Position numbers and translations under genes: made by a program. Under the pieces are notes generated by a model that made no database searches, was not told the origin of the DNA, and saw nothing but the letters and a program-made list of their open reading frames with translations. From positions 17,210,769-17,274,768 of the forward strand of contig NC_089727.1 of assembly GCF_035083965.1 (NCBI RefSeq): a stretch of DNA of 64,000 nucleotides, read 5' to 3'. Origin of the DNA: Branchiostoma lanceolatum. Taxonomy: Eukaryota; Chordata; Leptocardii; Amphioxiformes; Branchiostomatidae. Each line of letters begins with the position of its first letter. The stretch's first letter is position 1. Below are positions 5,591-62,589 of this stretch, piece after piece.

Positions 5591-6547
5591 TCACTCACCC
5601 ACAAATAAGCATTCAATATGAAAAGGCTTTATTACAATAGCATAAAAAGATATGTAAAAGGATACATGGAAGCTAGACAAAAATAGTAAAGTTTTACTTA
5701 GCCATACCTGTGAATCGCCAGGAAATCTTGACCAGTTAGTCTCATCATCCGAGTACGACACCACAAATGATGTCACATATCGAACTCGACCATTATTACT
5801 TTCCCAACCCTGTGTCTTTATACCAGTAAGTACATTTCTCTCCAACAAATCAACTTGTAACCACTGGCCCTGATTATCAACCTCTGCTCTCCATGCACTG
5901 GTCCCTTTTAGACGTGCCTTCTGGGGTGTATTAGATCCCCGGTTAAGCCCCGGTCACACTAAACTCACGTCGTACCTACGATGCACGTACGATGCATTTC
6001 CCGTACAACGCAGGTAAATCGCAGGTAAATCGTAGGTAAAATCAGCTATCGCAGAGCGTCGGGTGATGTTCAAAATTTTCCGGCGTCGTGCGATTTGTCA
6101 CGTGTCGCTCATCTCATATGTGTGCACGTTTCATCTGACCTTTGCAAGATGGTGATGCCACCAGAAAGAATCAGGCTGGTGTGACTGCAGATACAGCTAA
6201 ATAAAGTACAGGGAAGGCAAGCTGTAATTTTGGCAGCCCTCATCAGGGTTCTGCAAGAAAGACAGAATGCGAGAAGGCGACGGAGGTGGTGGGCGAGGCC
6301 GTGGATCCAGCGGTGGACCTGGCTAGGCCAATACGACACACTTTTGATTGAGTTGGCTCGAGAGTGTGGTGGGGACTACTTCAGAAACCAAAAGCAGTCG
6401 AGCGCATAGTGAGCGCTGCTATATGTTTGCATAATCTCATGAGAGAAAGGTACCCAGGCTTACAAAACAGAGACTTGGGGCCAGGGGGGCAAGTTGTCCC
6501 TGGGGCATGCAGGCAGGCCGGGATGTTTGGATGAGATGCGAAATGTG

Positions 6548-23535: not shown

Positions 23536-25809
23536 TTAACGGTTTGCCATCATAGCACGCATCTTCCTCTTTGTCTGCCGTGTCTTAATTGTGCTCTCAG
23601 AGAGCTCAAGAGATCGTTTGATTATCTCAAGAACCTTAAGTCTGTTTTCATTGGAGAATGTTTGCCCTTTGATAAGGTTTGTCAGAAAGTAGGTGTTGTC
23701 TGGAATGCTTCCTGTGATCTCCCTTGCAGCCTCGGCGAGCTTCTTCCTCTGTTCAGTGTCGGTCCCCTGGGAGTCCAACTCGTCTTCATGTGTTAGGATG
23801 GTCATAGTTCCCACACCTGAAACAGGAAGGTTTAGGAAATATACATTGCAATGCCTCAGCCGAATCAACTAGTTGTTTGAACCTTTCTTTATCCATGAGA
23901 TGCTCGCTTCGGCGTTTCATTTAAGGTCACGAGATAGGAATAAATTGTCAGACAAAATACAACAACGATGAAGGAAACAGAAAACACCAAAATGTTGATA
24001 AATTCCTTTGATGCGAACGTTGTGTGCAAAACTACATAATTCAAAGAATCCTTGCATTTTATGATGTGGTTTACCATACATATAAGAACAGAAGGTAGTC
24101 AAGAATAAAGCGTGGAAAATTGCACCTAAGTGATGACAACTTATTGACAAGCAAAAGACTTAAGATGAGTGATGTATTTTCTGTGATCGATACATGGAAG
24201 TTGCCAGAGCAGCGCACATGTACAGCGCTACGCCAAAACACTTGTGTGTTGACTTTGCCCTCAACTCAGAATTTGGCTGGTTTGTAACATGTATAAGCTG
24301 TCGCTTAAAAGCCGTCTGTAAAGCATCGCCGTCAAAAAGCAGTGCAAGAGACGCAAGGTGTAAGTCACCAACCTCGTCGTAAGAGCTGTTGTCGTAGGAA
24401 GTCCATGTGACACCTGTAGGCACCTTTGTGCAGCCGAGGGTCGCTGGCCTTAACGAACCACAGCACGACGTGAGTCTCATCCCTTAGCACTGTACCGACC
24501 CCTGTCAGCGACGTTTTCACTTTCTTTTCTGTCACCAAAATGATATATAAAAGACGTCTAATGTTACACATACCGAATTTAAAACACACAGGTCCGTAAG
24601 CACATGTGTATGTATACTTTGTTTCCGTGACTATGCTTAAGAATCGAAAAAAATCTCATTCCCCTGTGGTGATATGATCAATTTCGTTTAAAAATGCGTG
24701 CGAATGAAAATGAAAATATTTTGGAAAAAAGTTGTTAGATAAGCAATCAATTAAATTGAAAAGACCCAAAGCTGTACCTTAACTCTACCTATACCAAATG
24801 GTATGTTACCCACGCTTACATTTTGCGTCATGAAATAACGGGCGCTATTTCTGTTTTACTTTCTGTGTCTACGCTACTTCACTTACTACATTTACTACAA
24901 GACGGAATTAGGTGTATGATGTGTATTATTTTGCCGTTACCCTCCCAGCCTCATTTCCTGATGGCTTGCATGGAATTCTTCCCTATTAACTTTCGTATTC
25001 AACGGGACGACGAATCCAACGTACCTCGGTCGATACGGCTATCATCTTTTATGTCGCCGTTCAAAATGGCCAGTATTTCCTTCTCAGCGTCCCCACCAAG
25101 GAGGTCAAATCCCCGTGTGTCAAGCAGGGTCACCCCATCGGTGAGGGGGATGGTTTCCAAAAGTATCGTTCCTGTAACATAAATTGTATCTTAAGATAGA
25201 CAAAGAGATGTTGAAAGTATAGAACAACCAAGGCAAACTACTGCAAGTAATGCACATAGTATTGAATATTTAAGCCGTAAGTTTCTGCTTTGACAGCTAC
25301 AACTACGTTTGTAGTGTTACAAATATATAAACAGGCAATTTTCAGCTAAAATAAAGCTGTTTTTGGAGAGGTCATGATGTAGAAAACTACGCATGTTTTA
25401 CTTATTATCGTCGAAACGTTTTATGTAGCTACCGTACTCCATCCAAAGGGCAGAATATCAAATGGTTCATTGACGAGAAAAATATCTATAGACTGGTCTT
25501 AAAATCAAATATACAGATGTTTTCTACTCAATATCTGTTATTATGAATCAATTTGTGGAGTTTTTAAAACCGCCTACCTTCGGCTCCGGTACTCTGTATT
25601 ACAGCTGGTCCCTCTTCTTTGTCGTCCAGTGCCATGGCTACGGAATTAATAAACGAGCTTTTACCGGACCCTGTTATCCCGAACAGACCTACCCGCACAC
25701 AGAAGTCTTTCATTTCCCCCTCCTCCGCGTCTGGAAAACTCTGTGTGATATTCCCTACCTCGTACGTTTTAAGAAACATTTTAAGATCGGTGATCTTACT
25801 TAGGCTCAT
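23536..25809 (-). CDS. minimal IFI44-like P-loop GTPase
   Basis: Four minus-strand exons, 25578-25809, 25025-25171, 24373-24501 and 23536-23816, all joined in phase 1, give 262 residues. The start is MSLSKITDLKMF. The P-loop is GLFGITGSGKSSFINS (about 42-57); the switch motif LLDTRGF is near 90, and TILTHEDEL stands where the neighbouring GTPases have the THHDK base-recognition motif. It lacks the charged coiled N-terminus and the C-terminal helical domain of the neighbours and ends in a basic tail. GTP binding follows from the P-loop; resemblance to vertebrate IFI44/IFI44L is an inference. Confidence 0.8.
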
Positions 25810-26847: not shown

Positions 26848-29800
26848 TTAAAGATTCACTCCTTTGAACGTGTCAGCTAGTTCATTGTCGATGTAGCCCC
26901 TCATCCGCTCGCTCAGTGACAGTTCTCCCCGGATTTCTGCCCAGTTGTCACTGAGGGAGTTGGACGTGGTAATGTCCTCTTTCTTCAACTTGTCAATGAT
27001 GGGCTGCACTCGCTCAAGCTGCGGAATGCAAACATGGGGTTTTCAGTTTTAAAGTGTGTATTGCCAATATCTTTCATACATTGTCTTGTATGTTTACCTA
27101 GTTAAAGCTCCCATGTCTTACTTCCAAACATCAATCGCATGTGGGGCATACTGAATCATAGTCAAACCACTCTTTGTACATACCGGGATGTGCTTCTTAG
27201 TAGAAAGGCGGCGGAAGAAGTCTTCCACAGTCTCTTGGGGCCCTACATGAACAATAGCATCCTGATCTTATTACGCATAGAATTACTAAATATAGATACA
27301 CTGTGTCACTTGCTATACATTAATTTGTGCCTATTCAACAGATTATATTCTATGATGTGGCACAATTGCAAGATTGTTCCATTCACCAATCTATAGTCTC
27401 TTACTTCGAACAAACAGGTACTGTGTCGTGAGGCTAACCATGGATATGGAATGGATTAAGAGAGAAAATGCTTGATCATCAAACTAATACAGCTCTTTTA
27501 GATCCGTCATTTATGCTAACGCCAGTGATAGGTGTTTCCTGGAGTGACAGTTCTTTCTAAACTAAAATTCAGCCACAAGGATTGATAAGTGTCAGTGTTT
27601 CGCAATGACCACATTTCTCATGATGTGACCCGTCACATGATTTTCTTTACACCGACATATTGTATGTCAAGTCGTATGTGACCCAGTGACGTAATTGCAA
27701 GCGGCCCATCGGCCTTTCCCACCTGTCACCGGTTGATTCTTTCCCGCATCTTCCTCCTTCTTGTATTGTTCCTGTTGCTTGTAGATCTTGACGTAGCGCT
27801 CTGCAACGTTTAGTGCCGACCTCATGACCTTCATGGCTTCGACGTCGGTGCTGTAATCTAGAATCATTAAGGGAGAAAGTAGAAAAATATATGTGTATAT
27901 GTGTTCCTTCGCACTGATGTAACGAATGAATTACTGACTCCGTGTATTGAGTGGAAGAGACTATTCTTTTTCTTTCTGCTGACCTCTTTCCTTCTTGTCT
28001 ACGTGGTAGTTGGTAACAAAGAAGGTGTGGTCCCGGGCACTGCCGGTTGCCGCGGACGCTTTGGCCAAGGTGTCTTCCTCTTGACTTTTGCTAATCTTGT
28101 CGTGGTGAGTGATGACTGTGATCGGAGCTATTCCTACAACAACAACAACAAAAATTAAAAGCTGTAGTTATACCATGTTTGTAAGCTTCTTATATACATC
28201 TAAAACATCAAAATTTCCAAATCTGACAAACACAAACAGTATTTGTGGAATAAGCAGTATTGATATCGTACCTCTCGGACGCATAAACTCGCGCACAACG
28301 TTCAAATTTTCCCGGTGAGTCTGTCGAGGGCCTTGCAGACGAGGGTCTGCTGCCGACAGAACTATGATGATGGCGTGGAGCCAGTTGGGGAAGTAGTCCT
28401 CAGAGTCTTTGTTGTCAGCTTCTTTTTCAAATTTGATCTCCTACGGATTGAAGGATATTGAGAAACATAAAATTACCTATTTGCGACTCATATTCTAAGA
28501 CGTGACTTTCATTCATAATTTCAACTAACTTGAAGATCAAATGTGCAACGCAAAGCGTCCTTATTACCTCTCCAGGTTTGATCCTTCCGAAGACGATGTT
28601 GGTCAGTGCCATGAATTCGTCAGCGCCATGCTGGAAGAACCCTCGAGTGTCGACAAGACGGAAGTCATTATCGAGGTGGTCCAGGAACTCTTGCAGGGCG
28701 ATGGTGCCCTCCCCACCGCCAGTCTGGATATCAGCAGTACCTGCAAGAACATCAACACAGAAAAATGGGTCCCGCTAGCAGGATTCTTCACCATAGACTT
28801 CAATATAAATATATCCTCGCACGACTTGAAACTGGCGGAGAAGAATCACAGACTATGCATTGTTGTTTTAATATGACATTTCTTCCCATGGATTGCACAT
28901 TTTACTCTTTCCGCACGTTTTCGAGGTTAATGAGTAACGTTTATGATAGATCGTACTGCTATGTTAATACCATGTAAACCAAATGAAACGCGCATCCCTA
29001 CTGCCAGCGTATTGTATCTCGATCAGTCTTAGTCAGAATTTGAAATATGTGGATACACAATTGTGAGCTCATTCCAAATATAACACTTCTACCACTTACT
29101 TGGACTTATCATACATGTCATACAGCCCAATGTAAAACTAATTTGAAAAATAAAGATTCCACGCCCCCTTATTCTTCCGTGACTCGGTCACATTTCGACC
29201 GGTGCCTACATGCCGGGTCTCGAAGCCACAAATTTTTTTCGGCTCGTGGGGGGTGGGGGTTAGTGGGGGGGGGGGGGGGTCGTCTCGCGTAATTGCATGA
29301 TATGTTCACGGCGTCTATTTGTTAACGGGTCCCGGGTTGATTCTATGTCCGAGCTAAAGTCACCCCCGAGCCCGGGCATGCCAAAAATAGCCCTATAACC
29401 GCAGGGTGTCCGCGTGGCCACGGAGGGGTCACGCTCGAAAGTGCAAACAAGTATCCCATTAACTACGCGGTGGGGGCCTTTTTTCCGATGTTGACCGTAC
29501 TACATTCGCTGTACAATCGTCGCACAATCGCTTGCAAACTTCAGCTGTCTTTTTTCGGACTGTTGTATATGCGTCGGTGCTTGGTTCAGTAACAGCCTGC
29601 TTGAAAATTCTAAATCAAAATCGTACATCAACCTACAACGAATGTGACGGCGCGATGTCTTACCTTTACGAAGTCCCGGCTCCAGGGCCCTCTCACACGT
29701 GTTGATGAAACTGCTTTTCCCCGATCCGGTAGGTCCGAACAGCCCGATCCTCAGACCTCCTTCCTTCATGTCACTGATGTCAACTTTGGAGAAGTAGCGA

Positions 29801-30261
29801 GACCCATGGACATCCCCGAAGCGATAATCGAGTAGCTTGATCCTCTTGGTGTCTGCATCCTGTTGTAGCTGTCTCAGGTGCTCATCTCTCTCCCTCTCCT
29901 GCTTCTCGTATTCTCGCCTCTTTTGCGCCGCAGCTTCTCTGATCTTGTCCTTTGTAACGTCTATGTACTTGTGTACATACGTCACCTTTGGTTCCTCCTT
30001 GCTTCCCTGAGAACATCGTACATTTTCATTAAATACTACGTTGTAGTGGTTACAACTGGGCATACTTTCTATGATTTGTTCGATATAATTCAGTAGCCAG
30101 GCAGACGGAGCTCCACGTCCATCATTCAATAGTTATATCATCAGGCTACCCCGTAAAATAGCGCGTAAAAATCCGCATGATTTTTTTAAAATATACTTAA
30201 AACAAACTACTGTAGAGCGAGTTCCAAATGATGACAATAAACTTACCGAATTGCCTGCCAT
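26848..30261 (-). CDS. IFI44-like GTPase with coiled N-terminus and C-terminal W-x-x-I helical domain
   Basis: Eight minus-strand exons, 30247-30261, 29664-30006, 28568-28740, 28272-28440, 27984-28127, 27723-27857, 27184-27242 and 26848-27018, give 402 residues with all phases matching. The first exon encodes only MAGNS. A Lys/Glu/Arg-rich coiled stretch covers about 15-70. Then come the P-loop GLFGPTGSGKSSFIN (about 92), VDTRGFF (about 150), a hydrophobic HAIIIVLSAADPRL strand and THHDK (about 240). The C-terminal domain (about 325-402, VEDFFRRL through DNWAEI) is shared with the plus-strand GTPase and the RING gene nearby. IFI44-like GTPases are interferon-induced in vertebrates; a similar role here is inferred. 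A shared upstream element lies at 30440-30477. Confidence 0.88.
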
Positions 30262-30439
30262 GTTTCTCTGCTGTCGGCTTATTTTTCACTATCGCGAATC
30301 AGTTCCTGTTGTAGTTAAGCCTACAGGCAAATACAAACGTGTCCCATACGCGCCAGGCACAAATATGGACCACACGAATTTCCCTGCGCCGAGGTTACAG
30401 ACTGGGCGGCTTTCGAAACCTTTAGCAAGATCATGAATA

Positions 30440-30477
30440 GAACTTCCTCGAAAAGGTTTCGGGTCGTTTTGCATATG
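30440..30477 (+). promoter_or_regulatory. conserved upstream element of the GTPase family (copy 1)
   Basis: Contains AAAAGGTTTCG and then CGTTTTGCATATG, about 180 bases upstream of the GTPase start at 30261 and inverted relative to that gene. Close copies lie at 42357-42395 and, inverted, 46051-46092. A good plus-strand donor (GTGAGT) at 30692 suggests that a 5' untranslated exon of the plus-strand gene starting at 31895 may begin just to the right, which would make this a shared divergent promoter. That part is inference. Confidence 0.6.
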
Positions 30478-31262
30478 TTGTCTACTTGGCATCGTTTCAT
30501 GTTTCAGTGCGCATGTCACAGCCCTCGCTTGACTCCGTTGCATACTTGCGCCATCAAGGCCCGTTTTCGTTGTGCCCAGTTTCACATCTTCTCTATTAAA
30601 GAGAACTGCACAACAGCTAACGCGCGGTTCACAAACTTTACGGGAGGTAGGACCACCTTTTAGTGACGCCATAAAGAGACAGCTTTGACCGGTGAGTACA
30701 ATTCATATCTTCCAATCAAGTGAATGCAATTTTTTTAATCATTAAGGTGTACTACTGATGAATTCAACCTAGGTCCAGGTGAAAATTCAAGCTTGATTAT
30801 ATCTCCATCCCAATAGAAACATACAAACTATGTCATATCGACCATTTTGGTTTCGTTTTCAGACGGAAACTATCAGAAGGGAAGAGAGAAATTGTGTTTG
30901 AGAGAAATGGGCGCAATGGTTTCAATACATTATAAGCCCATATCACGGCAGGCTTACGGCGAAAAATTGGCAAATAGATGGCACAGTCGTCGTGGTATCA
31001 TGCAAAATTCAGTCTCTCTTCATTTGAAAAATATTTCATCTAGCAGCAGTTAGATTAATATTGCTGCTTTTGGATAACGCATATTTTCATTCCATTTGCA
31101 ATTGTCTTAACCAGCGGACTACAGTACTTCTGCCTAAAGCTAGGTGGCCCTGTAGGACTGTGTGGGTGGATGGGGGTTGTGGACATTTTGCTCCCTGGTT
31201 TTATGTACTTACTATAGACAACCCTATTGTCGGTCTATTAAGTTAAACGTAATCTACAACAA

Positions 31263-31894: not shown

Positions 31895-33413
31895 ATGGGA
31901 GGGGAGGAATCTAAGGTATGTTCCAGTAACATAGTCTTGTTCTTTTTTTAATACTAATCTAAGGTATAAAAACAAGGAAATTATGTGTTCAAAATACGTC
32001 TGCTTGAATAAATGTCATAACAACGTAGCAATACTTGTCTTTCTTTCCTTTTGAATCTATGAGCATTGTGTGTCTAGATCATTGACTCGACGATTGAGGG
32101 TCAGTAAAGAAATCGCAAAAGCTTACATACCAGCCAGTCAGAAACAGATGTTTGCATTGTCATTTAGTGATACGTTTCTATTTGTCGTCAGCCTGAGGAA
32201 GTAATAAGGTGGCACGATCGTTATGACGACGACGCCGAACAACGAGGCATTGACGAAGCTGTAAGAGAGTTTGAAAAAAGACGAGGGGTTCAGAAGATGA
32301 AGGAAGTAAAGGAGGCGCTCTTTCGGATAAAGAAAGACCTGCAGCCGGAGAAGTACAAAGTTGGATCAAAACTTCGGCTTGGCAAGTTATTCCCTGAAAA
32401 GATCAAGGAGATTGAAAATATCAACATAGGTAGGTCAAAATAATATTTCTCCTCTTGGTGCTTTGAGGGCTTCATTGTCAAGTATGGCATTATCTTTGTA
32501 CTGATCTACAAGGATGTTCATGGTTCCAACTGCGCGTGCGCAGCAACATTCGTTGTGGGTAATTAGGGTTAGGGTTGGAAGGCCCCAAACAGTTAAACAG
32601 TTCTTGTATTGACCATGATTAATACATGTCCAGATGTGTTTTCTTGATCAGAGGCCTTCACCTTTAATATGACTTATTACTCACAATGCATTTAGCTGCG
32701 CATCCATAGTTTGAACGAAGAACCTCTATAATGCACTGCGTCTACCATAATATATTTGAAAGCCCAGGGACATCTACAGAACAACTGTAAAGTCATCTTC
32801 TGTATCTTTTTTAGCAATGGTCGGCCCCACAGGAAGTGGCAAGTCAAGCTTCATCAACATTGCTGAACAAGTGATGATGGGTAAGAGCATCGTAATTATC
32901 AAATTTTTCATTTCCATTTCCCACCTGGATGTTATATGTGTTGTTGGTGATGGTGCATGTTTTCCAGTATTCTCTCTTTTGCACTTCGCTTTATGGTTAT
33001 CACTGTTTTGGTTGTTCATTACAATACGAAACTTGCAATGCAAATAAACCACTAGGGCTCCATTATTTTTCTTTCACTGTTGTAATAAAGAAACTTACAT
33101 ATACGGTCTGCGATCTGCGGCTGATTACAATGTTATTCTTCGACATGCAGGACCTGGTGAAGCTACTGCCATTACTCAAAGCACGGGTAAGGAGGGAACG
33201 ATCCACTTGGAGGAGTTCCTCACCAAGTTCAACTTCCGGTTGATTGACACCAGGGGATACTTCGATTTGGATGAAGGGTGGTCTCAGGAGTTAAAGAACA
33301 TCTTAACAGGTATCAACATATAGTACATATCATCTACTTCAGCCATCTGATACCAAAATAAGATGGAGTCTCTATTGTCTGCTGATTTACTATGATGCAG
33401 GTTTATAGATAGG

Positions 33414-33491
<78 letters not shown>

Positions 33492-35509
33492 ATGTAGAAT
33501 GAAAGAAAGGTCGCCATAGTCTAACATTGTCAGAGGGAAATGTGTACCACCGCTGCCCTCGTTTTCTTGAAAGCTCACGCATGTTCTCGCCGTGCTGTGC
33601 TCTCGCATGAGCACATTTGAAAATGGCGCTATGTAAGTGGAACGGGATCTATTGTCGAATTGATACCTAAAAACGTATTGGCAATTGACATCTACATAAA
33701 AGGAAGCTCTACATGTATATACTAGTTTGCTTTAAAATTGTAAACGATTGCAGGAAAGATCCGCCCAGGCCAGACGATTTTGCGTGAGGGAGACGACGCA
33801 GCCCAAGCTCCGGAACAGCACATGCGGTCTAAAGAAGCGCCCTTCGGCGAGCAGATCCACGGTGTCATCTGTGTGATGGTGGACAAGGACCCCAGGCTGG
33901 AGCAGTACAAGACCAGGATGAAGTCAATCAAGGAGTACCTAAGGGGACAAGGTACTCTTCATCCTACTGTGTTACAGACATATGCAGAAAAACACCTTTG
34001 GCATGAAAGCTGATCTAAGTAACATAGTACATACTGACTCAAAGGTAAAACTTCACCCACGAAAAGATAAGGTATTTTTGACAGTCCTACTAAAGTTTTC
34101 ATCAGAATTCACATGAACAATCACCTAGACCTTGCGGACACGTAACGTCATCAATGAACCAAACGTATCAGGAAGTTTATACCACCCGCCGTCTCGTGAC
34201 TTAGGTATTGTTTATTTACAGTAAAAAATGTGCTTGCTTTTGAAGTTTAAATAGCATTTAAATGCATTGAATGTCATTGTGTTGCTCAGCCCCGTCAATA
34301 GAAACCATACCGAAGGCCTATACGTCCATTCTTTTCAAATATTCACCAGGTTACAGCCCAGTAGCTGCCCTGGCCTTTGAAGATGAGAAAGACTTCAAGG
34401 ATGAAGAAAAACGACGTGACATCATGGAAGAGTTGTCTGCTGCAGTCGGCAGTCCTATAGACAAGTACGTACCTTGAGATAGTGTTTACGGTAACATAAC
34501 GCCTATCCAGCTACCTATAGCCACCTCATAAAACTACCTCATTTGCGTTGCTCACTCAGTGGTTTATTCGGCGGTTATAGATCACTGGCCATGCGTTGTA
34601 TCACGGCATATACATCGGGAAAGTTATTAACCTTTAATTTAGCATGGTATGTATATAAAATCGATGAGAACCGTTCGTTTGAAATGTCTACTCGTTCTCA
34701 ATGATTTTGGGTTTGCTTTCTAGCCTATATTTCTGACAATTGCTTTTTTTTTTAGAACATTCCCATTCATTAACCACCTGGCATCGGGAAGTGACATAAA
34801 GAAAGACCCGGAGTCGGTGTTGAACGTGCTGGACATTCTGGACACAGCGGTGACGGCTGCTGAGAAGTTCATCAAGGTTCGGCTGCAGCGTGAGAAGTAC
34901 TCCAAAGAACGTCAAGCAAAGGGGGCTGGTAAGTTTAACTGCAATACAAATTCAAGTCTTTCTTTTTCTTCTTCTTTTGTCTATTGTGTCCAATCTTCTT
35001 TCAGATAGTGGAAAGTTTGAAAGTGTACTAAAATAATTTCCCCAGGCCACATACATCCACCGCCTTGAAAAAGGCGTCTACAGAGATCTCCAATGCAACT
35101 TCCTTCAGTATGATGCACTCCTGTATATTTAAACTGTGCATACCTTGGGAGGCGGTACTGCAGAAAAGATCTTTCTATCGCTTCAAAGGTCCATAAAACA
35201 TAATGTTTTTTTCACGGTGGTGGACATATTAAATCCGGCGGAGAAATGTTAATGGTGTTTGAATATTAAGTTGGCCTTAATGCATGCCATTGGTTTCTTT
35301 TAGGCCCTGAGTCCCAGTTGTTCAGTGACTTCATCCAGAGCATCGGGAAGGCACACAACTGGGACAAAAGTCGCATCGACTCGCTGGTCCAGCTGCTGAG
35401 TGACGACGACATCTATGACGTCAGCACCCTTCGAGACAGCTGGGATGACGTCAGCCCCAAACTGACGATGGGGATGCGGTCTGTCCTGAAGCAGGCCTTG
35501 TCTGTGTAG
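31895..35509 (+). CDS. IFI44-like GTPase with C-terminal W-D-D-V helical domain
   Basis: Eight plus-strand exons, 31895-31915, 32192-32429, 32815-32880, 33151-33309, 33754-33951, 34350-34464, 34756-34928 and 35304-35509, give about 391 residues in phase. For the sixth exon an acceptor at 34290 also fits the phase and would add 20 residues; 34350 matches the paralogues better. The N-terminus (MGGEESKPEEV) is charged and unlike its neighbours. The P-loop MVGPTGSGKSSFIN is followed by LIDTRGYF. At the THHDK position it reads LAFEDEKD, so base recognition may be altered. The last exon encodes the shared domain (LFSDFIQSIGKAHNW through DSWDDV). It is divergent from the GTPase gene at 26848-30261. 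Confidence 0.85.
33417..33490. repeat. (TG)n microsatellite in a GTPase intron
   Basis: An uninterrupted TG run of about 36 units. Confidence 0.95.
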
Positions 35510-37909: not shown

Positions 37910-38463
37910 TTACTTAGGCATGACGTAGTTACTGACTTGCAGGACTTGTCGCTGTTTAATAGAACCGCTATGGTCGTTGTCGGTCTCTGTCACTGATTGT
38001 ATCTCCTTGGAGCTCGTCTTGCTGGAGGAAGTGTCTGAACCTGCATCACTCCCCGAACCACTGTGATTGTTGTCGCTTTCTATCATTGATTGTATATCCT
38101 CTGCGCTGGATATCTCGGGGTATCAGAGTAAGTTTTGTTTTACTATGAAAGCTCAACTTTACCCTCTCCTAATTAAAAAAAGGGAAATGTGAAATTTCAT
38201 GCATCTACTCTCTCAACCATCACTCACTTCCAAACCGTCATTGATATTTCCCACCTGTTGCCTCAAAGTTGTTCGGTGCTTCATCTTCCCGTTCCACCAT
38301 TTCCTGTATCTTGTGAATCTTGACGTAGCGTTCCGCAACTTTGAGTGCTGACTTCATGACTTCCATGGCGTCCATTTCGGTATTGTAATCTAGGAATACA
38401 GAGTAGTGCAAATAATTTGTTTAGATAATTTTCCGTCTTAGGCTCCTTTCTGTCACACAAAAA

Positions 38464-38513
<50 letters not shown>

Positions 38514-41500
38514 CAAACAAACACGCATACACAAAACAGTACTTCCATTTTCCATGGAGGTAACAACATCTCCGTTCACGGAGACAAATATTTTCCATGC
38601 TGTCTAGATAGAGAGAGGGGGAAACGGTACGTCAGCGAGAGGGTGGTGAGCGAGGGAGTAGATGTGAGAGAATGAGTGACTACAATGACATTCTGTTCTT
38701 CTAAGTGTAATTGTAACGATGTAAACTGAAGGCGTATGCGCAAATAGGGGTCTGGTGCCAAAATAGCATGTTATCTGTCTTAACCACCTTACCGGTAATT
38801 TACTTTTCCCACTGACCTGTTTTCTTCTTGTCTACATGGTAGTTGGCGACAAAGAAGGTGTGGTCACGGGCGCTGCCGGTTGCCGCCGACGCTTTGGCCA
38901 AGACGTCCTCCTCTTGACTTTCGTCGATCTTGTCGTGATGTGTGATGACCGTAGTAACTAGCAAAAATGAGAAGATGATCCTGTCAATCACAATGCATAG
39001 CTGTAGAAAAAAAATTAGCCAGTCCGAATCTTAATCAGACAGCCTTTTTTCGGCGTAATAATCCAGTTCACGGATTCGAGATGTATTGTTGGCAATGTTT
39101 CAAACGTGAAGGCCTCTTTGAAACATACACAAAATATATTCGGACATGTATCGAGCATGGTCTAGAGAAGAACTGTTGGCAAGTCAGGAGCTTTCTCTTT
39201 TGACATATTCCTCATAATACATATCGCTGCGCAAGCACAGTTTAATCCATGAACCAGCTTATACGCCAGCTTCACAGGTACACTACAGCTTTTCATATCA
39301 CACAGAACTGCAGGCTATACATAAATCATAACTCTGACTACTGTTTAAAGTTATCTCATAAAGTGGCCTCTTGTTTGATGACATGTTCGATGATGAAATA
39401 GTTCGTGGACAAACGAACTTTTGATACTCCGGGCGACAATATAATATCTGTGAAAGAAATTAAAGCACATATGATTTACCTCTTCGACGCATGAAGTCGC
39501 GCACTATCTTTAAGTTGTTCCGGTGAGTGTGGCCGTCTTGTAAACGAGGATCTGTCGCCGACAGAACTATGATGATAGCATGGAGCCAGTTGGGGAAGTA
39601 CTCCTCGGAATCTTCATTGTCCACTGGCCTTCCAAATTTGACCTCCTGAAGATTGAAGAAAACAGACGAAACAATGTATCGGCACATGAAAAATATAAAA
39701 TGGTGAAAAAGTACTACCCAACTCACGAGCTTTGTCATTTTGTAAGATACAGCTCACTCGCAGAAAATCTAAACTCGGTAATATATTTTGTAAAAAAAAA
39801 AGTGCCTACAGTACCTGGCCAGGTCGGATCCGTCCATAGACGATGTCGGCTAGCGCTGTAAACTCTTGAATGTTATGTCGGAAGAGTCCTCGCGTGTCGA
39901 CAAGACGGAAGTCATTGTCAAGGTCGTCCAGGAATTCTTGTAAGACTATAGTGCCCTCCCCGTGAGCTGTTTGAACGTCGGCCGTACCTGCAGCAAAATA
40001 GTCGCGTGAAATATAGCGTTATCTTAGCGAAATGTCATGAGTTTTCAACTGTTTTTGTTTATAAAATTTAAGTTCATTCACTTTGTCACTCTGTTTTCAT
40101 TTGTGTTTGTATGCTTGTTTGTATGCTTGTTTGTTTGCCTTGGTGTGTATCCGACTTTGTTTCCGCTTGCACAGGGTTTATGTTTGTTCCGGGCTGATTT
40201 CTAATCGGAGACTGACAGGATATTGACTTGAGTTGGGTGATGTCCACAAGGGACATACTTGCCGAAGTGGCAGGAAGTTCACACCAGAGGTGTTGAAACT
40301 ATCCGTTAGTCAGATATGATAGTCCAGGCCATGGAAATGCATATGGATTCTAATTTACGGCATTTATTTTGGTACGTCTGTTCCTCTGTGTTTTCGGGGT
40401 TATGTATTTTCCATATGATTGTTTAATAGATTTCCCTATCTGTGGTAGAACAGTAAGCAAATTTAATGTGCTTCTCCTACTTACCTCTGCGAAGGTCCGG
40501 GTTCATGGCCCTTTCACAAGTGTTGATAAAACTACTTTTTCCTGAACCAGAAGGTCCAAACAGCCCGATCCTCAGACCCTCTTCTTGTATATCACGAATG
40601 TCTAGTCCGTCGAAGTAGTGTTGCCCGTGAAAATTGCCGAATCGATAATTAAGCAGTTCCTGTCTCTTCCTGTTGGTCTCGTCTTGAAGTCGTTTCAGAC
40701 GCTCTTCTCTTTCCCTCTCTTGTCTCTCTTGGGTTCGTCTCTTCCTTTCCTTGGCCTCTTTGACTTTGTCCTTTGTAACGTCATTGTACTTGTGGACGAC
40801 CTGTGTCTGTGGTACTGGTGGCGTGCTTGGCTTTAGAGAGGGTGAAGATATCGTAGTTTAAACAACGTTTAAACAATTTAGATTTTGATATTCAACAACA
40901 ATTAAACAAATGTTCTATTACTACATGTACGTGTGATGTGTGATGGCTATTACTACGCCTGATGACTAAATCTTGACATACATGCATGACGTATTCTAAG
41001 ATTCTCTATCTTTTTCTAGTACAAGACCGATTAATAGTCACTCAAAAAGGACTCCATCAAAGTGTATAGGTCCAAATGGTAATTCATATGAAGCGTTTTA
41101 GAACTAATGTTGATTGAATGTTCCCTATTGATTATGCAAATGAAACCTTGCTTTACATGACATGTGCTACCAAAGCTATCATCATTTCTGACAAACTTAC
41201 AATATCTAACAAAGCTAGAGTCAATTCCACATTACCGAGAGGGTGTTTGTTGCCTTTTGTTCTAACATTTGCAAAACCTTTGTAACAATCTAAGGGAGAT
41301 AAATAACTGTTTAGAACAATTTCCAACATTCATTTGATGTTCTAAATAGTTTCTGCTGTGTTCCAACATGTTACACAAATTTCTAACATTGCACATGTTA
41401 TTTGTATTATTTTCGAAACTGTTGGAAAATAGGATGATCATTTGTTCCTACATGTTCCAACATTATAACAACATGGTATAACTGGGTCAGTGGGCTGGGA

Positions 41501-42266
41501 ACAGCGCAATTCACACATCCCTTCAAAGTATAGGGGATTAGGCCTGGGTGCCATGCATAGACACCTCAAGACAAAAGTCCAGACGTGAAATCTAAAAATA
41601 TACAGAGGCAGACAATAGAGTGCGATTAGCACCCAATTTTATGGGGGCAATAACCCAAATCTACCATTTGAAAAATGATGCAAATTGTTCCAACATGTTC
41701 GAACAGTGAAACAATCACATAGATGTTTGAAAATTGTTCTAAATAAAGAGATATTTGTGCAATTACTTTCTAAATAGTTCCAACATATATAAATAGGTTC
41801 AAACATGTTCAAACTTTCATTCTTCATTGTTTGAACAATTTATAACTATTTTGACTGGAATAGTCTTTTGTCTAAAATTGTTTGAACTCACTAGCAATAT
41901 TACCTGAGAACCCTCTCGGTGACATGGAATTGACTCTACCTACAAGCCGAATATACATTCATTCTTCAGCTATATACTGTTTCAAAAAATGTAAAGGTAA
42001 AGCTCCTATAGCCTTGTTTAGGACGTAGGGCAGAAGTTTGTTAACCCACGATGTCTAGGGGACGATATTGGAAGGCGTAGCCCAGCGATATCCTTTCACT
42101 TCCAGCGCCTTACTACTTTCTGAACATACCCATTTTTACACCTGAGTGGAGTGATACAACGTCCAGTCCCGTGACCTCTCTATCTTGTGTCCGCTAGCCT
42201 AGCAACTCAGCTATTTCAAATAGGAGAGTTACACATGAAGATAATAACACTTACAGAAGAGCCCAT
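37910..42266 (-). CDS. IFI44-like GTPase with Ser/Asp-rich C-terminus
   Basis: Seven minus-strand exons, 42255-42266, 40485-40830, 39815-39987, 39480-39645, 38817-38957, 38255-38389 and 37910-38100, give 387 residues. The first exon encodes only MGSS. Exon sizes and phases match the gene at 26848-30261 through exon six (173 and 135 nt identical). Features are a charged coiled N-terminus, the P-loop GLFGPSGSGKSSFIN, VDTRGLF and THHDK. The last exon does not encode the shared helical domain. It has two imperfect copies of an EDIQSMIESDNNHSGS-type unit and ends NYVMPK. That exon start (acceptor GCGCAG) is chosen for phase and is the weakest part of the model. A 719 bp MITE lies in intron 1. Divergent from the RING gene across 226 bp. 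Confidence 0.8.
38468..38508. repeat. (CA)n microsatellite in a GTPase intron
   Basis: An uninterrupted CA run of about 20 units. Confidence 0.95.
41218..41936. mobile_element. MITE with TA flanks in intron 1 of a GTPase gene
   Basis: The ends are inverted copies beginning GAGTCAATTCCA and continuing into ACCGAGAGGGT words, with TA on both sides. The interior is full of variants of TGTTCCAACATGTT and TTCTAACATT words. There is no transposase frame. It is probably a non-autonomous TA-inserting DNA transposon. Confidence 0.7.
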
Positions 42267-42492
42267 GTTTGTGCCGATAGCTGGGTTGGCTCACAAAGCG
42301 TTATGGACACAGGTTTCCGCGCTAAGGTTTCTGTGAGTGGGTCCGAAACCATCGAACAGAAGTTCTGCGAAAAGGTTTCGATCGTTTTGCATATGATGTG
42401 CATGACCTTACGGCCGAAAAATGTGTACTTAAAGTATCGAGAAAAACTCGGGCATTTTCACCTCTGACCTAACTCGCTTGCAGCAGACAAAA
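42267..42492. promoter_or_regulatory. bidirectional promoter between a GTPase and a RING gene
   Basis: Only 226 bases separate the divergent start codons at 42266 (minus) and 42493 (plus). The segment contains the conserved element at 42357-42395 (AAAAGGTTTCG and CGTTTTGCATATG), which also occurs upstream of the GTPase at 30261. Shared regulation is inferred from spacing and element conservation. Confidence 0.65.
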
Positions 42493-43442
42493 ATGGCGTC
42501 TGGGGTAGAAAACCAAATCAAGGAAGAGTTTCTCGTGTGCCAGATCTGTTTCGAAGACTACCACGAGCCAAAGGTGCTGCCATGTCAGCACACGTTCTGC
42601 AAGAAATGCCTGCAAAACATGGTAGCGAAAATGGGGAAGTTGACCTGCCCCAACTGTCGCCGGGAGTGTCAACTTCCGCAAAATGGCGTGGAAGAGTTGC
42701 CAATCAGCTTTTTCGTAAACAAATTGCGCGACATCATTGGTAATGGTGGTGGTGTTACTCGAAGCAGTCGTTGCACACGTGAGGACGAATCCTCAACAAC
42801 GTCCTACAGCTTCGACTATCGGGAGAACATATCCACGGCGTGCACGGGGTCTAACAGGCTACCGACGGCAGACCGTGCTCACAACGTAGTCACAACGGGC
42901 GACACCGCTAGGACAGCCGCCCAACACACAGGGTCTACTCCGGCAACCGGATACTCCGGACAGAACACCAGGCAGGCACCCGTTCGAGGTAGGTCCAAAC
43001 ACAGAACGTTGTGATGCAAAATCATAAAAAGCCACCATTAGGCTGAAGGTTTAATGGTAAATGCTCGAGTAAAAAAAACGAGTAAAACTCTGATGACTGG
43101 ACACTACCGGAACAGTCGTCACATCCATTATATAGGACTCTTAAGAAATACAGGTGAATTTTATTCTTTCTTTTTCGGTGTTTACGTTGTTATTAATATA
43201 CAATATCGATAGCAAATTCGGATAAACAACAGGATAGATCTATCGTCCGACTTGATGCAAGACTGGTTTCGAATCATCTATCAACCATTGATTTTGTTCT
43301 GTACCGTTATACAGTTCTCTCGTCTTCTGGGCGTTATGATGCAATTGATAACTTCTTTGTCCACCTCTGTTCTACACGATACGTACATGTAAGTATCATG
43401 GACACAATAATGAATCTACGTCTCTAAAGTTTTGAATGGCAC

Positions 43443-43504
<62 letters not shown>

Positions 43505-44244
43505 TGCGCACTCATTGTAAGTAACGTTATATTGCTTTCGAAAACAAGAAACAAAACATATCATACCTTCATAAACTTTATAGGATTGTGATTTATTTGT
43601 GTTATTCATTATTGTGAATTTTTCAATGATTCTGTCTTTGCATATCTCCAAACATATAGTATAAAATTGAAAACAAACTATTCTGTGGCATTTGATCGAA
43701 CTTTCTGTTAGTGTGCCCGATGTGCCTAACATAAGGAAATCCAATCAGAATAAGATAAACAAACACACAAGAAACAATATCTCCCGTTTCACGGAGGCAA
43801 TAACCTACTCTCCAAGCAAAGGTTTCTATCGAGGGCCTAGGAGTGGTCTGGATTTTTAACGCCTCCCCCCCCCCCCCCATCTCTACTACATAACGAATAA
43901 GGGTGGAGCTATACTTTCAAGGAGGAGGGGGCGTTAAAAATCCAGGTCACTCCTTGCCCCCTGGTGTCGATCGAAACCTCTGCTTGGAGAATAGCTAATG
44001 AGAAACAATTTCCCTCTATACGTATCTTTCACCATCATGCATAATGTATAAACGATGTATATTGTTTGTCTTCCAGCCGGATAGAGTACTGCCCATACTG
44101 TCTTGGCTGAAGGACCAAGACATCATGACCGCTCAGGATCTCCATGACAACTGGGATGACGTCAAAAACATGGTGGACATGACCAACGCCATGAGACAGC
44201 ACATCACTGAAGCTTTAGGGGAATTCATTCAAGCAGATAATTGA
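42493..44244 (+). CDS. RING-finger protein ending in the GTPase-cluster helical domain
   Basis: Three plus-strand exons, 42493-42988, 43315-43388 and 44077-44244, give 245 residues. The ATG at 42493 sits in a good context (AAAAATGGCG). The C3HC4 RING near residues 16-57 reads CQIC, then CQHTFCKKC and CPNC, as in TRIM-type E3 ubiquitin ligases. A Ser/Thr-rich linker follows (about 90-165). The last two exons encode the helical domain (NFFVHL through DNWDDV), in the same order and phases (1 to 0, then 0) as the last two exons of the GTPase at 26848-30261. No B-box, coiled coil or SPRY is seen. E3 activity is expected from the RING; the short middle exon rests on phase and alignment only. Confidence 0.78.
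43447..43501. repeat. (CA)n microsatellite in a RING-gene intron
   Basis: An uninterrupted CA run of about 27 units. Confidence 0.95.
43804..43994. mobile_element. hairpin MITE in the last intron of the RING gene
   Basis: The inverted ends include CTCTCCAAGCAAAGGTTTC and GAAACCTCTGCTTGGAGAAT. The inner arms carry GGATTTTTAACGCC and GGCGTTAAAAATCC, next to a C run. Confidence 0.7.
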
Positions 44245-46050: not shown

Positions 46051-46092
46051 CAACATATGCAACACGACCGAAACCTTTTCTAAGAAATTCTG
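46051..46092 (-). promoter_or_regulatory. conserved upstream element of the GTPase family (copy 3)
   Basis: The reverse complement carries AAAAGGTTTCGG and GTTGCATATG as in the other two copies. It lies about 130 bases upstream of the truncated GTPase copy at 46219 and is inverted relative to it, the same arrangement as at the intact genes. Confidence 0.55.
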
Positions 46093-46218: not shown

Positions 46219-46392
46219 ATGGGCTCTAAATACTTCTCTCGACTTGAAGCCAACAGGAAGAGACAGGAACTACTAAACTATCGATTCGGCGATGTCCACG
46301 GACAACACTACTTTACCGGGCTAGACATCCGCAAAATGCAGGAAGGCGGCCTGCAGAACGGGCTGTTTGGACCTATGGAATCGAAGGGCTGA
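46219..46392 (+). pseudogene. truncated GTPase copy
   Basis: An open frame of 57 codons starts MGSKYFSRLEANRKRQ and continues LLNYRFGDVHGQHYF, LDIRKMQEGGLQ and NGLFGPMESKG, then stops. It matches the first two exons of the GTPase at 37910-42266, but the coiled stretch is missing and the P-loop is destroyed: the GSGKS part of the motif is gone at the point where the frame ends. No further exons follow to 48 kb. The upstream sequence, including the conserved element, is also copied, so this is a genomic duplication remnant and not a plain retrocopy. Confidence 0.75.
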
Positions 46393-48678: not shown

Positions 48679-51432
48679 CTATGAGACAGCTGGCAAGGCA
48701 TCAGCACCTTTGCGGGCTGGAGAAAGTGGGGGAGGCTCATCTCCAGGGGGTACGATTTTGTCGGCTGTTCCAATCGCCTTACTTTTAGCAATTTGCCTCA
48801 GACTTGCATTTTTGGGTTTGCAATTCTTTTGCAGCGTGTCCACACCTTCATACAGGTGTGGTTGTGAGCAAGCTAACGGGGTATAAGCACCTTTACGGGG
48901 TGGGGGAAGTGGGGGAGGATCATCTTCAGGGGGTACGATTTTGTCGGCTGTTCCAATGGCCTTACTTTTAGCAATTTGCCTCAGACTTGCAGTTTTGGGT
49001 TTGCAATTCTTTTGCAGCGTGTCCACACCTTCATACAGGTGAGGTTGTGAGATAGCTAACGGGGTATAAGCACCTTTACGGGGTGGGGGAAGTGGGGGAG
49101 GTTCATCATTAGTGGGTTTGTTTTTGTGGCCTGTTCCAAAGATCCTGTTCTGGGCAAAATGCATTTGACCTATACCTTTCGGATTCGGCTTGTTTTGTGG
49201 TGAGTCAACGTCTTCGTACAGGTGGGGCTCTGAGACCTCTTGCAAGGTGGTGGCATCTTTACGGGGTGGGGGAAGTGGGGGAGGCTCATCTTTAGTGGCT
49301 TTGTTTTTGTTGGCTGTTCCGAAGATCTTGTCTTTGGCCAACTCCATTTGACCTATACCTTTCAGTTTGGGGATGCTTGGTTGTGAGTCAACATCTTCAT
49401 ACAGGTGAGGTTGTGAAACCGCTGGCAAGGTATCGGAATCTTTATTGGGTGGGGGCAGTTTGGGAGGCTTTTTAGGGGCTTTGATGTGATTTTGAGCTTC
49501 AAGAGCATTTTTTTCACCACGTTTCCCTTTTGGATCTCTAGATTGTGAACTGTTAAGCGGTGAACCCACACCAGTATACAGACCATTTTGCTGTGAAACA
49601 GATAACCCTGTGTTATACGTTAGATTTGTATCTTCCAAGGACTGAGTGGTTGGCTGAGACTGGCCCTGCGTTGTCTCATCATGATCACTAGTCATTACAG
49701 TAGAGTTTGGGGTGGATTGAGTGATAGCCAGAGACTGACCTTGCCCTGTCTGATCATGACCACTGGTAGGTGCTGGGTCCTTTGGTGGTGTTCCCACAGT
49801 TACAAACATAGGATTTGTCTTTAAGGCAGCTAGCACTTTGTCATGCTTTAGATTTCCACCTTTCAGAGATTGAATGGTAGCCTGAGACTGGCCCTGATCT
49901 GTCTGATCATGACCGCTAACCATTGCAGTAACTGTGATGCTTGCGTTACTCAGTTCAGTGGTGTCCCGAGTCTGGCCATGGTTTGTATGGTCATGGCCAC
50001 TGGTCATTTCTATAGATGTTGGGTCCTGTGGTTGTGTGTCTACATCTTCGTACAAAGGATTTGGTTGCAAGGCAGATGATAGTGCATTACGTGATAGATT
50101 TCTAACATCCAAAGACTGAGTGGGTTTAAAATGAGAGTGACTCTGCCTTGTCTGATCACGACCGCTAGTCGTTACACCAGCTGTAGTGTTCGAGTTGCTA
50201 CAAACAACATTGGGATTTGGGGCCGAAGGAGGATGCCTGGTCCTCCTCTTGTACCAGATTGTGAGAATGATGCTGCCAATCAGGACAATGGCAGCTGCTG
50301 GACCAGTGATAAAGCCAATGAGAACAGGGAGAGGGAAAATGGGAGCAGATGCATGGGTACTGTCGGAAGTTACCGTAGAGGGTGTCGTTAGTGGTGCTGT
50401 TTTTGGACGTGCCGTTGAACCAGATTTGGGCTGTGTTGCAGATGTGAAGCCAACAGGATGTGCTTTTCTGCTATCATTGCTTTCTGTGTTGCCACGTGAA
50501 GAAAGTGTTGGCACTGCAGATAAAGTGAATGAGGCATGAAGATGTGTTGATGTGGCGGTCTCGTTACAGATAAGGTCTTCGGGACTAATATCTTTGAGCT
50601 TTTGTCCACGAAAGTTTTCTGGTTGGGCACAAGTAAGCTTGTTTGAGAACGAATCAGACCCGGTCATGTTTCGCCTCAAGGGGACCATCTTACAATCACA
50701 CTGCCAGGGGTTGTTGTCAATGTATACAGTCTTAATTGCTGATAACATGCCGTGGGCAGAAAGGGGAAGGACTGAGATCTGGTTTGCCTGAAGGTTCAAG
50801 TATGATAAATTGAGTAGATCAGTGAATGTACCCGGCAGGATAGAAATTATTTGGTTGGAGGAGAGGTTCACGATAGTTAAGTAGGGTAGATTAAAGAATG
50901 TACCTGCCTGGATGTTCCTTATCTGGTTGTAATTCAAATGCAATGCCACGAGGCTTAGATTTGCAAACGTACCCGTTTGGAGTTCTGTTATGCGGTTTGA
51001 AGTCAGTTCGAGTTGGAAAAGCTTATCATGATTTGAGAATACACCTTGCTTAATGTTAGTTATCCCGTTTTTATGCAGACACAACTTTCCAAGCTGGGGT
51101 AGACTTTTTAATGTTCCTATCTCAATACTCGTTATCCGATTACTTCGCAGATCCAAGTCTCTTATGGATTTGCTAAGATTTTGGGGGAAACTGATTATTT
51201 GATTATATCCGAAAGATGAAAATGATATGTTTTTTGGGAGGTCCTGGGGAATGCTGGTGAGGCCCAGCCTGTCGCAATCACAGCAAGGAGTATTTTGTGA
51301 AAACCCCAAAGGCGGAAAGGTTCTGCAGGGTAAAAAAAATGAACATTTGCATCGATGTCCAGCTTCTAGAAAGCTGGGCTTCTTCATAATGATGAGAAGG
51401 AATATCAGCAGGTGTCTCAGCTTTTTCCCCAT
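48679..51432 (-). CDS. LRR transmembrane receptor with polyproline and LYE[DG]VD tail
   Basis: One coding exon of 917 residues. An acceptor at 51445 (CTCTTTAG) implies an intron in the 5' untranslated region. Order: signal peptide (about 1-24), Cys-rich LRR N-cap (CKC, CCDCD), about seven 24-residue LRRs (70-235) with NxI/NxF cores, LRR C-cap (NPWQCDC, LTC), a Ser/Thr-rich stalk with N-glycosylation sites, one membrane helix (about 372-396), then a tail of over 500 residues. The tail has SGHDQT-type repeats, then about five units with PPPLPPPRK (class II SH3 ligand) and PHLYEDVD or PHLYEGVD (SH2-type). It resembles innate adhesion or signalling receptors without a TIR domain. The stop at 48679 falls inside another repeat unit. 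Ligand unknown. Confidence 0.88.
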   Translation of the reverse strand: MGKKLRHLLIFLLIIMKKPSFLEAGHRCKCSFFLPCRTFPPLGFSQNTPCCDCDRLGLTSIPQDLPKNISFSSFGYNQIISFPQNLSKSIRDLDLRSNRITSIEIGTLKSLPQLGKLCLHKNGITNIKQGVFSNHDKLFQLELTSNRITELQTGTFANLSLVALHLNYNQIRNIQAGTFFNLPYLTIVNLSSNQIISILPGTFTDLLNLSYLNLQANQISVLPLSAHGMLSAIKTVYIDNNPWQCDCKMVPLRRNMTGSDSFSNKLTCAQPENFRGQKLKDISPEDLICNETATSTHLHASFTLSAVPTLSSRGNTESNDSRKAHPVGFTSATQPKSGSTARPKTAPLTTPSTVTSDSTHASAPIFPLPVLIGFITGPAAAIVLIGSIILTIWYKRRTRHPPSAPNPNVVCSNSNTTAGVTTSGRDQTRQSHSHFKPTQSLDVRNLSRNALSSALQPNPLYEDVDTQPQDPTSIEMTSGHDHTNHGQTRDTTELSNASITVTAMVSGHDQTDQGQSQATIQSLKGGNLKHDKVLAALKTNPMFVTVGTPPKDPAPTSGHDQTGQGQSLAITQSTPNSTVMTSDHDETTQGQSQPTTQSLEDTNLTYNTGLSVSQQNGLYTGVGSPLNSSQSRDPKGKRGEKNALEAQNHIKAPKKPPKLPPPNKDSDTLPAVSQPHLYEDVDSQPSIPKLKGIGQMELAKDKIFGTANKNKATKDEPPPLPPPRKDATTLQEVSEPHLYEDVDSPQNKPNPKGIGQMHFAQNRIFGTGHKNKPTNDEPPPLPPPRKGAYTPLAISQPHLYEGVDTLQKNCKPKTASLRQIAKSKAIGTADKIVPPEDDPPPLPPPRKGAYTPLACSQPHLYEGVDTLQKNCKPKNASLRQIAKSKAIGTADKIVPPGDEPPPLSPARKGADALPAVS
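48799..48981 (-). repeat. 183 bp in-frame tail repeat unit (LRR receptor)
   Basis: This unit is almost identical to the segment starting at 48982, giving a 61-residue period. It is the youngest of the duplications that built the tail; upstream units are more diverged. Confidence 0.8.
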
Positions 51433-51445
51433 GTTGTCCAGCCAC

Positions 51446-52122
51446 CTAAAGAGAACAATGAGAAGGAATTATTCATCCTGACTGAACCACTGTAACATAA
51501 TCATAACATAAAATAAATGTCCCAGTTCACTATCAGTTGATGTTTCACAACATACAAAGATACTGTTTCGGGGCTCATTTTTATCTCCCTGAAAAATGGA
51601 CATATAGTTTTGGGTGTGTCTGTGTGTCCGTCTGTGTGTGTGCCTGTGTGCCTGTGTGTTTGTGTTTCCGCACTACTGTAGTCAGCATAACTCAAGAACC
51701 TCTTGATGGATTTCGATTGTATTTGATATGTGGGCGGGTGTTCTCAAGCCGAAATTCGCGGTCGATTTTGGGCCCTCTGGTATGTGATCTTTGTACTGCA
51801 GCAGAACTTCAGTTTTTGTATCTTTTGACCTGTATGTGCTATGATATACTAGTAACTAATGAGGAAACTCTATATTTGCAGTGTCTTCCATTATAAGACT
51901 CAAATACATGAAACATACTTAGCATATGGCAAGTGGAGCATCAACAGATACCAATTATGCAAATAAGTTCCGAATTTGCATAATTAGTGCAAAAGCGCCA
52001 TAATTCATCTAAGTGGAAAATGATAGGACTGTCAATATTGCAACATGTATAAGTTAGATAACGATGTTTATGACCAAGCAGATATTATATAAATGTATAA
52101 GTTATTTGCATAAACAGAACAG
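51446..52122. other. 5' flank of the LRR receptor with a dispersed repeat
   Basis: Positions about 51590-51760 carry a TGTGTGTCTGTG-rich run followed by AGCATAACTCAAGAACCTCT. The same pattern, inverted, lies at about 56545-56690 and a partial one at 58590-58650, so it is a dispersed repeat family. Confidence 0.5.
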
Positions 52123-62509: not shown

Positions 62510-62589
62510 CCTTCAGGGTAGCTAGACAAGTTTGATATGAACTTATGAGGTAACTAGGCCAGCGTTGATTAAGGCACCGTCTCGGCTTA

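Follow-up and report, generated by a model that had tools for sequence, protein, structure and literature searches.

How closely can a ubiquitin ligase gene be connected to the GTPase genes that surround it? This question is raised by a stretch of 64,000 nucleotides of the lancelet Branchiostoma lanceolatum (contig NC_089727.1, positions 17,210,769 to 17,274,768; hereafter the window, in whose own coordinates all positions are given), where a RING exon is followed by two exons that resemble the tail of a neighbouring GTPase. The window is animal-like, with introns and a GC content of 37-44% by 4-kb step. Ten open reading frames selected from its 307 include those of a ZIP gene and an LRR gene, two exons of the F5/8 type C kind and a fragment of a reverse transcriptase. 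Neither Rfam at gathering scores nor ARAGORN finds anything in the window. The ZIP zinc transporter is encoded in a single frame (61496-62512, minus strand, 181.6 bits), as is the LRR protein (48679-51465, minus strand), which has an LRRCT and whose long C-terminal part is rich in proline and bears repeats. The two F5/8 type C domain exons lie at 13377-13772 and 5594-5953 (minus strand), and an open frame of 441 amino acids at 19642-20964 (minus strand) contains an internal near-duplicate stretch (KIIGVLRYGKLDVGYTYALDE...) and matches nothing in Pfam at E up to 0.01.

The RING gene and its product

The gene that concerns us is made of three exons, with a putative poly-A signal downstream:

42493..42988, plus strand: exon 1, with the Met start, a TRIM2/3/56-type C3HC4 RING (residues 16-55), its flanking sequence and a Ser/Thr/Gly/Arg-rich linker
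43315..43388, plus strand: exon 2, N-terminal part of the common module, phase 1 in and phase 0 out
44077..44244, plus strand: exon 3, remainder of the common module and the stop codon
44660..44665, plus strand: putative poly-A signal, the first AATAAA past the stop, 416 nt after it

Once spliced, these exons give 738 nt, which is 245 amino acids and a stop, and the predicted protein consists of the RING, a Ser/Thr-rich linker and a C-terminal module of about 75 residues. Both introns have GT/AG boundaries (GAG/gtaggt ... tatacag/TTC and CAT/gtaagt ... cttccag/CCG), and the junctions are in phase 1 and then in phase 0. Generic splice matrices place the two donors first and second among the 96 GT sites of 42493-44243, the top-ranked one being that of the RING exon, and the two acceptors third and first among the 54 AG sites of 42989-44243. 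The introns (42989-44077) contain neither AATAAA nor ATTAAA. The frame ahead of exon 2 is open, yet no Met precedes the module in it, so that exon 2 requires an upstream exon in the right phase. The original prediction of a C3HC4 RING exon followed by two module exons is thus borne out by splice sites, phases, an uninterrupted frame and a RING that passes Pfam, and we consider the exon-joined fusion of RING and module to be well supported and very probably real. The second intron also holds a (CA)n run (43447-43501) and an imperfect palindrome of about 200 bp (43800-43999), a foldback of MITE-like appearance.

The RING itself scores above the Pfam cut-offs (PF13445, 44.2 bits vs 25.2; PF00097, 39.9 vs 21) and has the spacing C-x2-C-x11-C-x-H-x2-C-x2-C with a final C-x2-C (residues 16-55). 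Its best solved relative among the best 60 of 107 distinct sequences is TRIM2, which aligns over residues 3-82 (E 1.2e-22), and in the same set TRIM3 (E 3.9e-19) and TRIM56 (E 1.7e-18) align over slightly shorter stretches. Pfam and these alignments together identify it as a TRIM-type C3HC4 RING. The Ile of the CxIC motif and the Arg that follows the last Cys have functional roles in RINGs; both are present in the translation, together with all eight zinc ligands.

The likeness to TRIM2, TRIM3 and TRIM56 extends to the sequence flanking the RING, but the spliced protein differs from them in two ways. It has no B-box: none figures among the 22 matches that Pfam gives for it (E up to 10), and none was seen by eye in the plus-strand open frames of the introns of the gene. 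And while TRIM2, TRIM3 and TRIM56 carry their own C-terminal domains, this protein ends in the module of the GTPases. The linker that connects the two parts is 82 residues long, with 25 Ser/Thr and 8 Gly; it is rich in Ser, Thr, Gly and Arg and has few aliphatic residues. In NCBIfam, neither the RING protein nor the body of GTPase A reaches the cut-off of any family.

The neighbouring GTPases and the shared C-terminal module

Between 23.5 and 46.4 kb, the window contains four GTPase genes, termed here A to D (B on the plus strand, the others on the minus strand), and one broken head fragment:

26848..30261, minus strand: GTPase A gene, eight exons, P-loop GPTGSGKSS, DTRG, THHD; carries the module
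26848..27018, minus strand: last exon of GTPase A, main part of the module
27184..27242, minus strand: penultimate exon of GTPase A, N-terminal part of the module
31895..35509, plus strand: GTPase B gene, in an approximate model, with the module as single last exon, 35304-35509; first exon proposed at 31895-31915
38255..42266, minus strand: GTPase C gene, in which the module was not found; 42255-42266 is proposed as its first exon, joined to 40485-40830
23539..25782, minus strand: GTPase D, partial model, no module found
46219..46389, plus strand: broken GTPase fragment, head exons only, with a degenerate P-loop and then a stop

The model of GTPase B is approximate because three of its six acceptors score poorly (-7.8 to -13.3) at the boundaries given. 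The last exon known for GTPase C stops at a donor, downstream of which the module was not found. The first codons of the broken fragment run straight into exon-2 sequence, the intron being absent and the upstream element kept. None of the Pfam GTPase families (AIG1, IIGP, MMR_HSR1, dynamin) reaches its gathering score for GTPases A or B; the scores for A are those of MMR_HSR1 (19.3 vs 21.9), IIGP (13.7 vs 24) and Dynamin_N (8.7 vs 27), and for B, in its approximate model, of MMR_HSR1 (20.3 vs 21.9), AIG1 (11.8 vs 27) and Dynamin_N (12 vs 27). Against the PDB, GTPase A has 41 matches, none of them significant (E 0.013 to 1.8) and all inside residues 13-141, round the P-loop. The neighbours had been described as IFI44-like, a label that these Pfam and PDB results do not confirm. 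A lancelet gene named IFI44 is down 9.66 log2 units after poly(I:C) in a table of PMC5752451, which assigns its gene number to EGFL7 as well; from the excerpt of that paper, no link can be drawn between this gene and the GTPases of the window.

The relationship between the tail of the RING protein and that of GTPase A is clear. The two align over 75 columns, ungapped, with 22 identities (29%), and the Smith-Waterman score of 121 is reached by none of 5,000 shuffles (22.8±4.2). Exon 3 alone scores 96 (0/5,000), while exon 2 alone matches weakly (30 vs 12.3±2.8, 1/5,000). The C-terminus of GTPase B is more distant and still recognizable (67 vs 25.6±5.0, 0/5,000), which confirms that a similar domain ends the plus-strand GTPase. 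The intron phases before and within the module (1 and 0) agree between the RING gene and GTPase A, and GTPase B keeps the phase-1 entry and lacks the inner intron, its module being one exon. The expected match to the last two exons of GTPase A therefore stands for translation, order and phases, but not for exact lengths: these are 74 vs 59 nt for the first of the two exons, the 5' edge of RING exon 2 lying five codons further out, and 168 vs 171 nt, stop included, for the second. All three copies are found at a C-terminus.

When a three-copy profile was run against the 2,877 six-frame segments of the window (at least 15 amino acids each), five segments exceeded the inclusion threshold, all of them exons of the RING, GTPase A and GTPase B genes, and no fourth copy was found above it. 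The module is thus common to GTPases A and B of the cluster, and none was found with C or with D, the latter in a partial model. The external search covered IMG/VR and GTDB contigs; 162 pattern stretches in the former and 243 in the latter were recovered, none of which tblastn upheld as a relative of the module. Taken together, these comparisons support that the C-terminal modules of the RING protein and of two neighbouring GTPases are homologous and that the phases of their introns are conserved.

What kind of fold the module adopts is a more delicate matter. A helical outline, SAM- or death-fold-like, had been proposed. Pfam gives it no backing in any of the three copies: no family exceeds its cut-off for the module, no SAM family appears at E up to 10, and DEATH, DED and CARD are all absent. 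Hand-made profiles favour SAM, weakly and inconsistently. These tests were made with hhalign on family sequences and column-shuffled controls, with several templates and no correction. A six-sequence SAM profile scores 15.8 in local mode (reached by 0/60 and 3/300 shuffles) and 8.4 in global mode (1/60 and 7/150), the global alignment leaving the DNW region of the module unpaired, and the six SAM sequences taken singly are reached by 4, 22, 2, 12, 14 and 0 of 30 shuffles. The death-domain (DD) profile is reached by 40/60 shuffles in global and 44/60 in local mode, the CARD profile by 11/60 and 4/60, a two-sequence DED profile by 59/60 and 14/60, and UBA by 17/60 and 12/60. Single templates gave 13.9 in local mode for DED (6/300; global 0/30), and were reached by 6/30 shuffles for PYD, 5/30 for CARD and 15/30 for DD. 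By these comparisons, DD, CARD, UBA and the two-sequence DED profile did not stand out from shuffles, and SAM is kept as a best guess only.

Three other leads were set aside. The HSR family scores 13.6 bits in Pfam (cut-off 24.9, E 0.078) for the RING copy alone of the three, and an AIRE HSR sequence reaches 20.5 (0/300 shuffles local, 0/30 global). The AIRE alignment pairs the front half of the module with the tail of HSR, out of register, and we rejected HSR because this conflicts with the Pfam alignment, where module residues 28-70 face HSR positions 22-64. The alphaRep designs returned by a PDB profile search (E down to 3.2e-8) owe their scores to summed repeats, matched mostly over about 15 residues, and were rejected because none of the pieces reaches significance on its own in the five alignments shown. 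A Chou-Fasman prediction gave a mixed picture of helix and strand.

A head-to-head start and a shared upstream element

The RING gene (plus strand) and GTPase C (minus strand) are arranged head-to-head, their proposed start codons being about 226 bp apart (42267-42492). This interval contains an element that recurs elsewhere in the cluster:

42354..42399, no strand assigned: upstream element of about 46 bp between the RING start codon and the proposed one of GTPase C, core CGAAAAGGTTTCG-N2-CGTTTTGCATATG at 42368-42395
30435..30481, no strand assigned: copy upstream of GTPase A, exact core at 30449-30477
46051..46092, no strand assigned: copy ahead of the broken GTPase fragment, with 2 mismatches in the core

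By blastn, the element matches the GTPase A copy at 85% of 47 columns and the fragment copy at 86% of 42 columns (E 1.2e-7 each), with no further copies in the window at a cut-off of 0.01; it was not seen ahead of GTPases B or D. Its core, written CGAAAAGGTTTCG-N2/3-CGTTTTGCATATG, is exact at two sites of the window (0/100 shuffles), and the third copy comes at 2 mismatches, where the best of 30 Markov genomes came at 6. Taken singly, the two halves are not beyond chance: each has 4 matches at up to 2 mismatches, vs 1.2 and 2.2 expected, a count reached by 7/100 and 23/100 shuffles.

Across the element from the RING gene, the minus strand reads ATGGGCTCTTCT/gtaagt at 42266-42255, which we propose as the first exon of GTPase C. 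Its context, CGGCACAAACATGGGCTCT, shares 17/19 bases with the 19-mer round the ATG of the GTPase fragment, and it is the only other place in the window that this 19-mer finds at up to 3 mismatches. Joined to 40485-40830, this exon would give MGSSPSTPPVPQ...GPSGSGKSSF, parallel to MAGNS/GSKEEP in GTPase A; its donor is moderate (rank 9/113). If this start is right, the element lies near the middle of the 226 bp and is oriented alike with respect to GTPases A and C and to the fragment, so that the RING gene would rely on a promoter of the GTPase type, read in the opposite sense. The interval 42267-42492, with its cluster-specific element, is a candidate bidirectional promoter. The common upstream element and the head-to-head pair are independent evidence for co-regulation and linkage.

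From a shared module to a possible ligase-GTPase team

Gene order, module and element together suggest, without proving it, that the ligase and the GTPases work as a team. The explanation that we prefer, to which we give about an even chance, is that of an E3 ligase tied to its GTPase neighbours by a common assembly module. Exon shuffling within a cluster of animal GTPase genes would have given rise to the RING gene: a RING exon of the TRIM2/3/56 class, free of a B-box, would have been linked through a phase-1 intron to the two module exons of an A-like GTPase. The gene would be transcribed divergently from GTPase C across the interval of about 226 bp that bears the cluster-specific element. 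The most likely mechanism is that the module is a small assembly domain. The GTPases would presumably assemble on a target and display their modules; those of A and B would bind the module of the RING protein and draw E3s onto the GTPase assemblies; this clustering would pair the RINGs and stimulate the discharge of E2~Ub; and ubiquitin would be placed on the GTPases or on whatever they coat. What the analysis establishes is the homology of the modules, the intron phases, the order of the genes, the common upstream element and the intact zinc ligands of the RING; expression, the first exon of GTPase C, the fold, binding between modules, E3 activity and a role in immunity are inferred. For the co-assembly of ligase and GTPases through the module, the chances seem to us roughly balanced. 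A point against the preferred explanation is that the module was not found in GTPase C, the gene that faces the RING gene head-to-head.

The reading that competes best accepts the fusion and makes the module merely a self-association or targeting domain, which would dimerise the E3 in place of the B-box and coiled coil of TRIMs and homo-oligomerise each GTPase, so that the two never meet. Divergent paralogous assembly domains often lose cross-binding; with 29% identity between the RING and A modules, cross-binding may have been lost here, and B is more divergent still. TRIM RINGs, moreover, commonly need self-association: their activity is often tied to it in the excerpts of PMC7752041 and PMC4864278, which speaks for the preferred mechanism as well. 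Not every TRIM RING depends on pairing, and this counts against that mechanism: in the excerpt of PMC7752041 the dimer-interface mutants of TRIM21 are still active, though less efficient, and the RING of TRIM56, among the closest relatives here, is monomeric in the crystal. The occurrence of the same module in the same cluster, with the same upstream element ahead of the RING gene and GTPase A, argues instead for a joint pathway, and we hold separate self-association to be possible and distinctly the less probable of the two.

It could also be that the gene is a prediction artefact, exons 2 and 3 being what is left of the tail of a decayed GTPase copy, and the RING exon part of another transcript. 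Novel domain combinations in lancelets often reflect such gene-prediction errors, according to the excerpt of PMC4967905, fusion artefacts being common in lancelet gene models; a broken GTPase fragment does lie 2 kb downstream of the RING gene, and exon 2 alone matches GTPase A only at the level of 1 shuffle in 5,000. But phase, strand and splice sites all fit; tblastn (E up to 1) finds no GTPase-body match between 40.8 and 44.0 kb, hence none ahead of exons 2 and 3; exon 2 has its open frame without a Met upstream of the module; and the module is intact. Indeed, NG86 gives dN 0.65 and dS 1.74, near saturation, for the RING and A modules (a pairwise ratio of about 0.37 over only 75 codons), so that the copy is old and under amino-acid constraint. 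An artefact is thus improbable. Least probable of all is a RING gene that acts as a decoy or regulator devoid of E3 activity and caps the GTPase assemblies through its module: a broken copy and a module-less copy do suggest turnover within the cluster, but the eight zinc ligands, the CxIC Ile and the Arg following the final Cys are all in place.

The preferred arrangement, an E3 and GTPases joined by one module, can be compared with several known systems. RING proteins with helical adaptors include BFAR (RING-SAM-DED-like), LRSAM1 (SAM-RING) and cIAP (CARD-RING), which likewise combine an E3 head with a small protein-interaction domain; the module described here differs in that it matches no SAM, DED or CARD of Pfam and is common to GTPases of the same cluster. 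Lancelet defence genes include CARD-AIG1 GIMAPs (PMC12373286) and TIR/NACHT hybrids (PMC2575513), in which defence-type GTPases or receptors were joined to adaptors by shuffling, as may be the case here; in the excerpts of these two papers, a RING attached to the C-terminal module of a GTPase does not occur. Among the open-access matches listed, neither the titles nor the opening lines of the abstracts mention a protein that combines a RING with a GTPase tail.

A comparable principle is that of the bacterial effector-associated domains (EADs) of conflict systems, where, as stated in the excerpts of PMC7159879 and PMC8195603, one small adaptor is carried by different, often near-encoded proteins and homotypic contacts are proposed. 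The lancelet case differs in being made of animal genes with a RING effector, and scans of bacterial/archaeal and viral contigs turned up no sequence relative of the module. It is tempting to see in this locus an animal counterpart of the EAD principle, in which locus-encoded, co-regulated P-loop GTPases and a RING E3 would use one previously unnamed module, one GTPase and the E3 being fired from a shared bidirectional promoter and the assembly of GTPases on a target directly nucleating ubiquitylation; we offer this extended reading as a tentative one that is rather unlikely to hold in full.

In cell-autonomous defence, the recruitment of ubiquitin ligases by GTPase coats is usually accounted for by separate recognition steps. 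A cluster of this kind, pairing a ligase with GTPases through one module and one upstream element, would hard-wire that recruitment and offer a concrete domain to look for in other animals.
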